In this document: piece by piece, positions 1-41,997 of the stretch
Numbering within the stretch: position 1 is the stretch's first letter
How the letters are laid out: the number at the start of each line of letters is the position of its first letter
Assembly (NCBI GenBank): GCA_947574215.1
Contig: CANPIX010000009.1
Span: forward strand, 1-41,997
Source: an uncultured Mycoplasmatota bacterium
GTDB taxonomy: Bacteria; Bacillota_I; Bacilli_A; RF39; UBA660
DNA: 41,997 nucleotides
Direction of reading: 5' to 3'
Program-made: the position numbers and the translations under genes
The notes under the pieces: model-generated
Seen by the model: only the letters and a program-made list of their open reading frames with translations
What the model was told of the DNA's origin: nothing
The model's database searches: none

Positions 1-413
1 CAACCACTGGAAACTATACAGGAATCTATGATATGAGTGGAGGGGCCTGGGAATACGTGATGGGTGTAATGCTAAATGCTGATAATACAGTAACAGTAAA
101 TGGAATAACATCAATCGAAAGAAAATATTATGATACATACCAATATGGTACAAGTAATATAACATACAATCGAAGAATTTTAGGGGATGCAACAGGAGAG
201 ATGGGACCATTTTCGAATGCCAAGTATGGAAGTCAAACTAGACAAATCAGTTCTTGGTATAAAGATGAAGCATGGTTTTTGAATTCTTCAGCTCCTTGGT
301 CTAGGCGTAGTGGCGATTACACGCTTGGTATGAGCAGTGGTATTTTTAGTTATGCTAACAGTAATGGAAGTTTAGATATAGGCTATGGTTTTCGAACGGT
401 TTTATCTTTATAA
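1..413 (+). CDS. C-terminal part of a secreted/pilin-like protein (5' truncated)
   Basis: The reading frame is open from the window edge (first full codon at base 3) to the TAA at 411-413, so the start lies outside the window. The visible 136 residues contain the segment GIYDMSGGAWEYVMG, are rich in Gly, Ser, Asn, Tyr and Trp, and end in GFRTVLSL. From memory, this kind of C-terminus is seen on surface proteins with a prepilin-type N-terminus in gut Bacilli and recalls the fold of formylglycine-generating-enzyme-like domains; that is recall and not proof. No membrane segment is visible in the part present. An extracellular protein is the best guess. It is followed by the separate lon promoter. 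Confidence 0.5.
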   Translation, partial: TTGNYTGIYDMSGGAWEYVMGVMLNADNTVTVNGITSIERKYYDTYQYGTSNITYNRRILGDATGEMGPFSNAKYGSQTRQISSWYKDEAWFLNSSAPWSRRSGDYTLGMSSGIFSYANSNGSLDIGYGFRTVLSL

Positions 414-38303: not shown

Positions 38304-39413
38304 ATGATAGAGGAAATAAAACAAATTAAGATTAAAAATCTTAACAATTTATATGAATATAGACAAAAGTTGTATAAAAAACCTATATTAAAAGATTTGT
38401 TTCTTGAAGTCACTTTAAGATGCAATGCTAAATGTGAACATTGTGGAAGTAGTTGTGGAGAGAATATCTCAAAAGATGAAGTGAGTGCAGAGGATTTAAA
38501 AAAGGCATTGTTAGATATTTCTAAACATTATAATGCGAATGATATACTATTAAATGTAACAGGTGGAGAGCCATTACTTAGACAAGATTTATTTGAAATA
38601 ATGGGTTATGCTAGTAAACTAGGATTTCGATGGGGGATGACTTCCAATGGTATATTAATAACTGATGAGATATTAGAAAAGATGAATCAAACAAATATGG
38701 AATCTATTTCAATCAGTCTTGATGGTTTAAAAGAAACACATGAAAATTTTAGAAAAGTACCAGGATCTTTTGATAAGATCATTAAAAATATAAAAAAATT
38801 ACAAGGTGTTTCTTCAATAAAAGTTGTTCAAGTTACAACCGTTGCTAATAAAAAAAATCTTAATGAATTAGAGGCTTTATACCAATTAATGAAAGAATTA
38901 AATGTTATTTCTTGGAGAGTTATTAATGTTGATCCAATTGGAAGAGCAAAAGAAAATAGTGCTATTTTGCTTGATAAGGATGCGTATAAATATTTATTCC
39001 ATTTTATAAAAGAAAAAAGAGAAGAAAATATAATGAATGTTGAATATGGTTGCAGTCATTATCTAGATATATTTATGGAAAAAGAGATACGAGATACTTA
39101 CTTTTATTGCACTACAGGTTTGTATGTTGCTAGTATATTAAGTAATGGAGATATATTTGTTTGTCCTAATGTTATACGTCGATCGGAATTTGTACAAGGA
39201 AATATTAAGACAGATAGCTTTACAGAAGTTTGGGAAAATAAATTTAAAATGTTTAGAACTGACGAAAGAACAAAATGTGAAAAATGTAGTAAGTGTTCAA
39301 AATGGAAATATTGTCTTGGAGATTCTTTTCATACTTTTGATTTTGATGATAGAAAACCTAATTTTTGTATTAATGAAATATATGATGAAGGGAATTTAGA
39401 AGAAATAAAATAA
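38304..39413 (+). CDS. Radical SAM/SPASM enzyme, substrate unknown
   Basis: Cys40-x3-Cys44-x2-Cys47 (CNAKCEHC) binds the radical SAM cluster, and NVTGGEPLLRQDLFEI, MTSNGILI and SISLDGLKETHE are further family motifs. The C-terminal ~110 residues form a SPASM domain: CTTGLYVASILSNGDIFVCP, then CEKCSKCSKWKYC and a final FC, enough Cys for auxiliary clusters. Such enzymes often modify ribosomally made peptides. No peptide gene is seen directly upstream, and the next gene encodes a 168-residue acidic protein. The 369-residue length is usual. The weak AGGTAG ribosome binding site precedes ATG. High AT content and many ATA/AAA codons suggest an accessory origin. Confidence 0.85.
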   Translation: MIEEIKQIKIKNLNNLYEYRQKLYKKPILKDLFLEVTLRCNAKCEHCGSSCGENISKDEVSAEDLKKALLDISKHYNANDILLNVTGGEPLLRQDLFEIMGYASKLGFRWGMTSNGILITDEILEKMNQTNMESISISLDGLKETHENFRKVPGSFDKIIKNIKKLQGVSSIKVVQVTTVANKKNLNELEALYQLMKELNVISWRVINVDPIGRAKENSAILLDKDAYKYLFHFIKEKREENIMNVEYGCSHYLDIFMEKEIRDTYFYCTTGLYVASILSNGDIFVCPNVIRRSEFVQGNIKTDSFTEVWENKFKMFRTDERTKCEKCSKCSKWKYCLGDSFHTFDFDDRKPNFCINEIYDEGNLEEIK

Positions 39414-39446
39414 AAAAGCATTAATTTTAGTTTGGAGGGAAATACT

Positions 39447-39950
39447 ATGGCTTTATTTAATAAAAAAGAAAAATATAATATTGAAGTAGAAAAAAACATT
39501 CCACAAAAAGTTTATGGAATACCTGATGCTTTGGAAAAAAATGGAAAAGATAAAATCAAAAACTCTATGGAATTTGTAAGAATTGCTATTAATACTAGAG
39601 ATTCAAATTCTATTTTAATGTTAAGTCATTTTACAAGCCCAGAAAAATATGATTTACTAGTAGTTGATCTTAATAATTTAGAAGGTAAATCTATATCAGA
39701 AATATCTATATGCATTTCAGAAGAGTATTATAAAAAATTTTTAAGCAAACTTTATAATATAACAAAAAATTGGAAAATTTCTTATTCAGGAAATAAAGAA
39801 ATTGTATGGAGTTTAAAATTAGATATAGATTCGAATAAAGAGTTTCTATCAGGAAATGGAGAAATTCCAAATAATTGGAACGATTTAGTTGAGTTGATAT
39901 TAGAATATGAAACAATATTTAATAATCAAAAAAAGAAGGAATTTGAATAA
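39447..39950 (+). CDS. Unknown protein paired with the radical SAM enzyme
   Basis: I do not recognise this protein of 167 residues. It has no signal or membrane segment. The N-terminus is MALFNKKEKYNIEVEKNIPQ (19 residues shown plus one) with a VYGIPDAL motif at about 23-30. A strand-rich middle (LLVVDLNNLEG, WKISYSGNKEIVWSLKLDID) follows and the end is acidic. A TTG at 39432 is in frame, but it forms the TTGGAGGGA ribosome binding site, so the ATG at 39447 is used. It lies 33 bp after the radical SAM stop with no terminator between, so the two are probably one operon. It could be a partner, carrier or substrate of that enzyme; nothing decides which. Confidence 0.6.
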   Translation: MALFNKKEKYNIEVEKNIPQKVYGIPDALEKNGKDKIKNSMEFVRIAINTRDSNSILMLSHFTSPEKYDLLVVDLNNLEGKSISEISICISEEYYKKFLSKLYNITKNWKISYSGNKEIVWSLKLDIDSNKEFLSGNGEIPNNWNDLVELILEYETIFNNQKKKEFE

Positions 39951-40322: not shown

Positions 40323-40850
40323 ATGGGCAGTGAAAATAGCAAAAAAATTATTAATAATGAATTTGATTATTCTAATTGTTTACCAACAATTGAATGTGTT
40401 ACCTATTTAATTCAATATATTTTTAATGTTTATGATAATTTTTTAAAGCTTCAAACTGAAGATGAAGAAAAAAATAAACCGCTTAAAGTTGAATACAAAG
40501 AATGGAAATACAAAAAAAGTTATGGAGAAAAATTTGAAGTGTATATAAGAGAAAAAACTTATAATAATATTATTTGTAAAGATTTCGTATCTTTTCAAAG
40601 TGCCGTTAATGAGGGTAATCTGAAAAATGTATTAGGATTAACAATTCGTTTAAATCTTGATTATAAAAGAGGAACTGGGGAAAATCTTGATGAATATGAA
40701 AACTCTTTTTATATTTCATTTGAGCCAAATAACGTTATTTTTGCGAGAAAGTCTAATCATATTGAAGAGGATATAAATCAAATAGAAACAAATATTAAAA
40801 CAATTTTAGAAAAATTTCCAACTATTAATACTATATTTTGTACAAAGTAA
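40323..40850 (+). CDS. Unknown soluble protein, first of a tandem distant-paralog pair
   Basis: I do not recognise this 175-residue protein; it has no membrane segment. Side by side with the next gene it shares a layout: a Trp near the start of a strand-rich domain (KEWKYKKSYGEKFEVYI against QKWTVKDYKGYFKVDV), then D-F-x-x-F-x-S, LKNVLGLTIRLNLDYKR against IKNFYLRYSANYYRK, and a C-terminal EEDINQIETNIKTIL helix against SEDKIMNQIYDMIKQKIL. The likeness is weak but runs over ~120 residues in the same order. The ribosome binding site AAAGGA is clear. The next gene starts 18 bp later. Confidence 0.6.
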   Translation: MGSENSKKIINNEFDYSNCLPTIECVTYLIQYIFNVYDNFLKLQTEDEEKNKPLKVEYKEWKYKKSYGEKFEVYIREKTYNNIICKDFVSFQSAVNEGNLKNVLGLTIRLNLDYKRGTGENLDEYENSFYISFEPNNVIFARKSNHIEEDINQIETNIKTILEKFPTINTIFCTK

Positions 40851-40868: not shown

Positions 40869-41807
40869 ATGTATGGAAATACAATAAAAGTTGCAAATAA
40901 GATTCTTACTGATAAAGATTTAGAAGAAATATTTTTTAAAATTTATGAAGAGATGAAAATGTGCCAAACTCAATGCAAAAACGAAACGATGCAAAATGAA
41001 AGATATGAAAGAGAATATCAAAAATGGACAGTAAAAGATTATAAAGGCTATTTTAAAGTAGATGTAAATTTTTATGATGATACTAATATTTCTTTTGACA
41101 ATTTTCATAATTTTATGAGTATATTTAATAGCCGTTTGCATGAAATAAAAAATTTTTATTTAAGATATTCGGCTAATTATTATAGAAAACTTGAAGGGCA
41201 ACAAGAAACTTATATTTTACAAAATATCAATTTGGATGTTTATGAAGATAAAATGCATGTTGATGTTAACTTAAATAGTGAGGATAAAATAATGAATCAA
41301 ATATATGATATGATTAAACAAAAGATTTTATCTGCTCCTGAAAAATATGATAAAGTAATTAAAAAGAAATCTTCGATTATTAATAAAGTAAGTTTTGCTA
41401 TTGGAGCCATTCCGACTATTATTGTTTTAACTTTATTAATTTTTGTACCTACGATTAGACAAATTTATGCAATGACATTCGTTTTGTATCCACTTGCTTG
41501 TTTATTATTATCGTTTGTTATAGGAAATACTTTTTGCAGTGGAAAATTTAATAAGTTATATAAAAATATAGTTCCCAAACAAAAATATGTAGGATATGAT
41601 TCCAAAAATAATAAAAGCATTTATAAAGACGATATAGATAGTTATATTGAAACAAGTGAAATTTTAATTGGAAAAAATATAGATAATTTAAAGAATAGAA
41701 ATGAAATAAAAATATTAGAAGAAAAATATAGTAAATATCTTCCAATTGAAATATTAGTAATTCTGATTTTATCTTTTTTGGTAGTTTTAATTGGAAGAAT
41801 AATATAG
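40869..41807 (+). CDS. Unknown membrane protein, second of the tandem pair
   Basis: The 312-residue protein has a ~160-residue N-terminal domain similar in plan to the preceding protein, then a membrane hairpin (about 175-197 and 199-222), a cytoplasmic-looking loop with KYVGYDSKNNKSIYKDDIDSY-type charge (about 240-262, split), and a third helix (about 290-311) at the very C-terminus. I know no function. A soluble copy paired with a membrane-bound copy of the same domain suggests that the two proteins interact. The AAAGGAG ribosome binding site is strong. The two genes form an operon. Confidence 0.65.
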   Translation: MYGNTIKVANKILTDKDLEEIFFKIYEEMKMCQTQCKNETMQNERYEREYQKWTVKDYKGYFKVDVNFYDDTNISFDNFHNFMSIFNSRLHEIKNFYLRYSANYYRKLEGQQETYILQNINLDVYEDKMHVDVNLNSEDKIMNQIYDMIKQKILSAPEKYDKVIKKKSSIINKVSFAIGAIPTIIVLTLLIFVPTIRQIYAMTFVLYPLACLLLSFVIGNTFCSGKFNKLYKNIVPKQKYVGYDSKNNKSIYKDDIDSYIETSEILIGKNIDNLKNRNEIKILEEKYSKYLPIEILVILILSFLVVLIGRII

Positions 41808-41904
41808 TTGAAATTTTAAGAAGTGAATTTTTTGAAGAAAAATTGATGAGTGATGAGGAAATAGAATAAAATAAAAAAGTTGATCTAGAAATGGACTTCT
41901 TTTT

Positions 41905-41935
41905 TTGAAAAAGAGTTCGGGGGGGGGGGTATAAT
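41905..41935 (+). promoter_or_regulatory. Candidate phase-variable promoter
   Basis: TTGAAA (41905-41910) and a consensus TATAAT (41930-41935) are separated by 19 bp, of which the last 11 are a G homopolymer. Loss of two G would give the optimal 17-bp spacer. Slippage in the tract would therefore set promoter strength for the gene running out of the window. Confidence 0.7.
41919..41929 (+). repeat. Poly-G tract (11 G)
   Basis: Eleven consecutive G in a ~30% GC sequence; the next longest G run noticed in the window is six. It lies directly against a TATAAT box. Confidence 0.95.
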
Positions 41936-41949
41936 AAAGATAATAGAAA

Positions 41950-41997
41950 ATGAAAGAGAAAAAAATAAAAAAAGAAGTGATACTTTCTATAAGTATA
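41950..41997 (+). CDS. Start of a possible exported protein (3' truncated)
   Basis: ATG at 41950 opens a frame that stays open to the window edge, MKEKKIKKEVILSISI. A Lys-rich start followed by a hydrophobic run looks like a signal peptide or membrane anchor. There is no clear ribosome binding site, and the expected transcription start is only ~8 bp upstream, so the true start may lie further on. Confidence 0.35.
   Translation, partial: MKEKKIKKEVILSISI

Follow-up and report, generated by a model that had tools for sequence, protein, structure and literature searches.

A poly-G promoter at the end of a contig

The stretch of DNA analysed here (the window, 41,997 nucleotides) is a complete contig, C9, of a 1.11 Mb assembly in 40 contigs from an uncultured bacterium that probably dwells in the gut. 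It bears the following features:

1-413, forward strand: 3' end of another surface-family gene, its C-terminal variable region 99% identical to that at the start of contig C33
20178-21425: IS110-family transposase gene
38304-39413: radical SAM/SPASM gene, immediately preceding the small ORFs
39432-39950, 40323-40850 and 40869-41807: small ORFs without a significant match in a Pfam search
41822-41904, forward strand: remnant of the 3' end of rpoC with its terminator, 90% identical to contig C37, which carries the rpoC end
41905-41910, forward strand: -35 box TTGAAA (TTGACA in the C33 paralog)
41911-41929, forward strand: promoter spacer of 19 bases, composed of AAGAGTTC (41911-41918) and G11
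41919-41929, forward strand: poly-G tract, G11; the genome has eight such tracts
41930-41935, forward strand: -10 box TATAAT
41936-41949, forward strand: 5' leader between TATAAT and ATG, from sequence comparison with paralogs
41950-41997, forward strand: first 16 codons of the downstream gene, start ATG at 41950, beginning MKEKKIKKEVILSISI..., a member of a membrane-anchored, multi-copy family

A sequence-only reading of this DNA had described eleven G residues in the spacer between TTGAAA and a perfect TATAAT (41905-41935), with a spacer of 19 bases at 11 G and of 17 bases at 9 G, and the coordinates bear out both the layout and the arithmetic. The tract is not due to chance: four overlapping G8 matches are observed in the window against 0.08 expected, and none of 100 dinucleotide shuffles of the window reached four. 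The same reading placed the promoter beside an island of unknown genes; this island consists of two or three small ORFs that have no significant Pfam match. Together with these neighbours, the radical SAM/SPASM gene is possibly a peptide-modification locus.

A paralogous promoter at the end of C33 has the structure TTGACA-AAGAGTTC-G10-T-TATAAT, likewise with a 19-base spacer, and precedes the same gene start. C33 keeps a Shine-Dalgarno-like AGAGG, whereas the window copy has TTGAAA and G11, and its leader lacks 13 bases, including AGAGG, that the paralogs on C33, C23 and C7 retain; comparison with these paralogs places the deletion between two ATAGAAAA repeats. The terminator hairpin in the window's rpoC relic is degenerate, at -6.7 kcal/mol versus -19.8 kcal/mol in the C37 copy.

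The window ends 62 bases past TATAAT, and its final 55 bases are identical to C23:775-829 on the reverse strand. The ends of C33 and C37 also overlap C23 by exactly 55 bases, as expected of a k=55 assembly graph, and the overlap allows the downstream gene to be followed into C23. There MKEKKIKKEVILSISI... is followed by GVIALLYILGSTSYAFYTANIENKK..., a hydrophobic N-terminus, and the protein as read across the join begins MKEKKIKKEVILSISIGVIALLYILGSTSYAFYTANIENKK...; the signal peptide-like start noticed in the sequence-only reading is continued by a hydrophobic segment. Very probably the window promoter leads into this membrane-anchored family gene, the exact join being derived from the assembly overlap, and the same entry into C23 is common to several upstream paths, including the end of C33. 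Extending the sequence in this way, as had been proposed, supplies the probable downstream gene.

The downstream family consists of modular, multi-copy, predicted surface proteins, with relatives in 21 of the 22 genomes of the genus and up to 41 matches in a single genome. No usable family name came from searches of Pfam, NCBIfam or PHROGs, apart from a DUF6273 stretch within a single paralog, and a single-sequence AlphaFold model of the downstream protein (pLDDT 46.5) is too poor to use. Family members adjoin housekeeping genes, namely after rpoA (C7), fhs (C23) and the trigger factor gene (C33); the names of these genes, including rpoC, were assigned by sequence inspection. At their 5' edge, the copies in the window, C7 and C23 bear sequence from the end of rpoC or from its terminator, and from this comparison the surface-gene cassettes look as if they had been copied from a site downstream of rpoC.

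A C-terminal stretch of about 50 codons (window 183-403) is highly variable among family members, while its flanks are nearly identical. A diversity-generating retroelement was considered as a source of the variable C-termini and rejected: the stretches examined revealed no template repeat, although the genome encodes two reverse transcriptases whose motifs resemble (I/L)GxxxSQ (on C38 and at C1:48533-49147).

Poly-G tracts in the genome and the genus

The whole genome contains exactly eight G-runs of eight or more bases, six of them G10 and two G11; a count of all such runs yielded no G8 or G9. Four lie in promoters (the window, C33, C8 and C31) and four in reading frames (C21, C34, C17 and C15). 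The C8 promoter combines TTGACA with a 19-base spacer, a spacing found in both poly-G TTGACA pairs (C8 and C33) and, with TTGAAA, in the window. The ordinary TTGACA..TATAAT pairs of the genome number 26; 16 of them are spaced by 16-18 bases, none by 19. The G10 of C31 (C31:75-84) precedes a type IV pilin-like gene (MKNKGFTLV). It follows directly after TTGAC, which puts the tract on the -35 side in an alternative layout of the promoter.

Among the reading-frame tracts, those of C21 and C34 are G10 in the coding frames of two paralogs, assembled out of frame and in frame at 9 or 12. The G11 of C17 (C17:21626-21636) lies near the start of a TOD1/MUCI70-type glycosyltransferase gene, assembled out of frame and in frame at 10 or 13, which is likely a phase-variable surface sugar gene, and the tract of C15 lies near the C-terminus of an open frame. 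Part of our best explanation is that this genome has at least eight poly-G contingency loci, some acting in promoters and others in reading frames.

The arrangement recurs across the genus. The string GGGGGGGGGTATAAT (G9-TATAAT) is present in 16 of the 22 genomes of the genus and absent from all 38 others searched, and the pattern TTGAC-N5..13-G8-TATAAT occurs at 22 sites in 12 of the 22, with tracts from G8 to G11 among the genus promoters. Neither the backwards pattern nor a poly-C version of the TTGAC..TATAAT promoter has a single site in the genus. Tract length differs among related promoters, for which the sequence-only reading had proposed a count in related genomes: upstream of an orthologous ABC-transporter gene (at least 81% identity, 14 species) a tract of G9-G11 is present in seven species and absent in the other seven, and near-identical paralogous promoter pairs differ by G9 versus G10. 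Several of the tract-bearing ABC-transporter copies also carry a second TATAAT closer to the gene.

One relative, genome G011, carries G10 in the first membrane segment of all 29 paralogous surface genes examined. All 29 tracts are out of frame with open frames behind them, and one base fewer restores each frame. These tracts are possibly programmed slippage sites or homogenised contingency loci. Their uniformity exceeds what free slippage alone would leave, and recent duplication, gene conversion, a mutational equilibrium near G10 and programmed slippage are all possible contributors.

Occurrence beyond the genus

The TTGACA version is carried by 14 of 392 genomes of the phylum, and the backwards version by none of them. 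In one other family (f18), 12 of 55 genomes carry a total of 29 sites, each with at least G8 although G7 was allowed. A GTDB-wide scan over 84,980 species genomes, requiring at least G9, returned at least 119 stretches with at least 125 distinct sites. The matches listed come mostly from gut Clostridia and Bacilli, with a few in Saccharibacteria, Streptobacillus, Helicobacter and others; two genus mates of the present bacterium (G013 and G004) are among them. A phage origin of the poly-G promoters was rejected, as 2.9 million viral contigs held only two matches.

Among the matches listed, the downstream ORF usually begins 20-60 bases past the -10 box, and 73 of the 104 readable downstream ORFs (70%) have a strongly hydrophobic N-terminus, compared with 114 of 461 neighbouring ORFs (25%); the Fisher p of about 6e-18 is overstated, since some sites are paralogs and length cut-offs differ. 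Many of the downstream proteins in this set are lipoprotein-like by eye.

Nearly all spacers among the matches listed measure 14-21 bases (one of 14, 11 of 15, 20 of 16, six of 17, 30 of 18, 39 of 19, 13 of 20 and five of 21), so that at G9 or more the 17-base class is rarer than either of its neighbours. Reading this dearth as a sign that the assemblies are mostly in an OFF state was dropped, because the G9 minimum excludes G8 with a 9-base flank, which makes 17 bases. With G8 allowed, 17-base spacers are common in family f18. A non-G part of eight bases is rare among the matches listed, and the spacer pattern is only partly explained by the G9 cut-off.

Probable phase variation and its alternatives

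What the sequences show directly is the anatomy of the window promoter, its recurrence in a set position and on one strand, the related promoters of paralogs and orthologs, and downstream genes of exported type. The window promoter is probably a slipped-strand transcriptional phase-variation (contingency) promoter of the porA/fetA/fim kind, assembled in its weak 19-base state. The sequence-only reading had proposed a phase-variation switch for a surface protein, and comparative evidence argues in its favour: recurrence on one strand in the genus, the C33 paralog, the orthologs and the export signal-like N-termini. Three traits of porA/fetA-type promoters are found here: a homopolymer between recognisable -35 and -10 boxes in the window; a tract length that differs among related promoters (G9-G11 in orthologs, G9/G10 in paralog pairs); and a surface or exported product, predicted from the membrane-anchor segment at the start of the window gene and, among the matches listed, from exported-type N-termini in 73 of 104.

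Sigma-70-type promoters work best near a 17-base spacing. Slipped-strand replication errors in the G-run would alter the -35/-10 distance by single bases, and the cells of a clone would carry spacers of about 17 bases (strong) to 18-20 bases (weak), with output expected to be weak at 19, intermediate at 18 and strongest at 17, the length that loss of two Gs from the assembled spacer would give. If the window copy is still active, expression of a membrane-anchored surface-family protein would switch at random. As a kind, the poly-G promoter reading is well supported by comparison of sequences, and the switching of the window copy itself is a prediction.

Several observations count against phase variation. 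The join to C23 rests on a 55-base assembly overlap, and the end of C33 enters at the same place. In the window copy the -35 box is TTGAAA, not TTGACA, and the leader lacks a Shine-Dalgarno sequence; with its -35 box weakened and that sequence lost, this copy may be less active than the sequence-only reading assumed, and may be a poor or retired member of the family. A retired copy would be a former switch that was copied along with its gene and part of the rpoC terminator and is now weak or silent at any tract length, so that only the paralogs switch. The altered -35 box, the 13-base deletion of AGAGG and the degenerate terminator relic, as compared with C33, C23 and C37, agree with such a history. 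However, the G tract and the perfect TATAAT have been kept, TTGAAA is still a common -35 box and a nearly leaderless transcript could be translated, and we consider retirement unlikely.

The uniformity of the G011 coding tracts also counts against phase variation, being greater than free slippage would leave unless the copies are recent or homogenised. Alternatively, the tract might be a fixed element, in which G-rich non-template DNA beside the -10 box tunes initiation through its structure or spacing geometry and the coding G10 tracts are read by programmed polymerase or ribosome slippage. The occurrence of G and never C at the spacer position in the genus would fit a fixed element, as would 29 of 29 coding tracts at exactly G10, out of frame, with open frames downstream. 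Yet lengths differ among orthologs, among genus promoters (G8-G11) and between near-identical paralogous promoters, which makes this explanation quite improbable. A sequencing or assembly artefact, from two-colour poly-G calls or contig-end junk, is hardly credible: the tract ends 68 bases from the contig end and the sequence leading into at least one other poly-G locus, where its contig begins, resembles junk, but normal sequence lies on both sides, the promoter context is exact and shared with a paralog, and the same arrangement recurs in many independent assemblies, including strain-titled records (Blautia, Coprococcus, Streptobacillus, Helicobacter).

To our knowledge, most documented cases of promoter-spacer phase variation come from a small number of pathogens, the majority of them Gram-negative. 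In Bordetella, the poly-C promoters of fim place a surface structure under homopolymer-length control, and B. pertussis has been the subject of a homopolymer survey (PMC1891110). Phase variation of the window promoter would likewise act through homopolymer length at the promoter of a surface gene, but fim has C on the sense strand and an activator-controlled promoter. Another parallel is offered by Neisseria porA and fetA, with poly-G or poly-C between the -35 and -10 boxes (van der Ende 1995; Carson 2000; both as cited in PMC5320596), where the spacer homopolymer, according to that source, sets the -35/-10 distance and hence transcription of a surface protein. In contrast to these Gram-negative outer-membrane proteins, the present family is multi-copy and modular and belongs to an uncultured lineage related to Bacilli/Tenericutes, and the G-run of the window directly abuts the -10 box on the non-template strand. 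The C17, C21 and C34 tracts, which put their genes out of frame, resemble the translational poly-G contingency genes of the meningococcal haemoglobin receptors HmbR and HpuAB (PMC3786947), whereas the window tract lies in a promoter. Orsi 2010 (PMC2831843) treats homopolymeric tracts as a general prokaryotic mechanism and surveys poly-A/T in coding 5' ends; its abstract shares with our data the theme of reversible homopolymer regulation across prokaryotes but does not treat poly-G promoter spacers. Poly-G spacer promoters of uncultured gut Bacillota did not turn up in a partial literature search, and in the review PMC11868660 the terms Firmicutes and Gram-positive are both absent.

The mechanism is already known from Neisseria and Bordetella; its recurrence across a whole genus and in many gut bacteria is the interesting part. 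We propose tentatively, at somewhat less than even confidence, that poly-G spacers abutting the -10 box represent a widespread, repeatedly evolved form of transcriptional phase variation of exported proteins in uncultured gut Bacillota, and that in this genus a large, modular surface family is under promoter or reading-frame poly-G control, with the commonest length off or weak and contraction by one or two bases turning expression on. Should these promoters switch, surface proteins would differ from cell to cell in many uncultured gut bacteria, and such switching would be hidden by consensus genomes but readable from tract lengths in existing metagenome reads.
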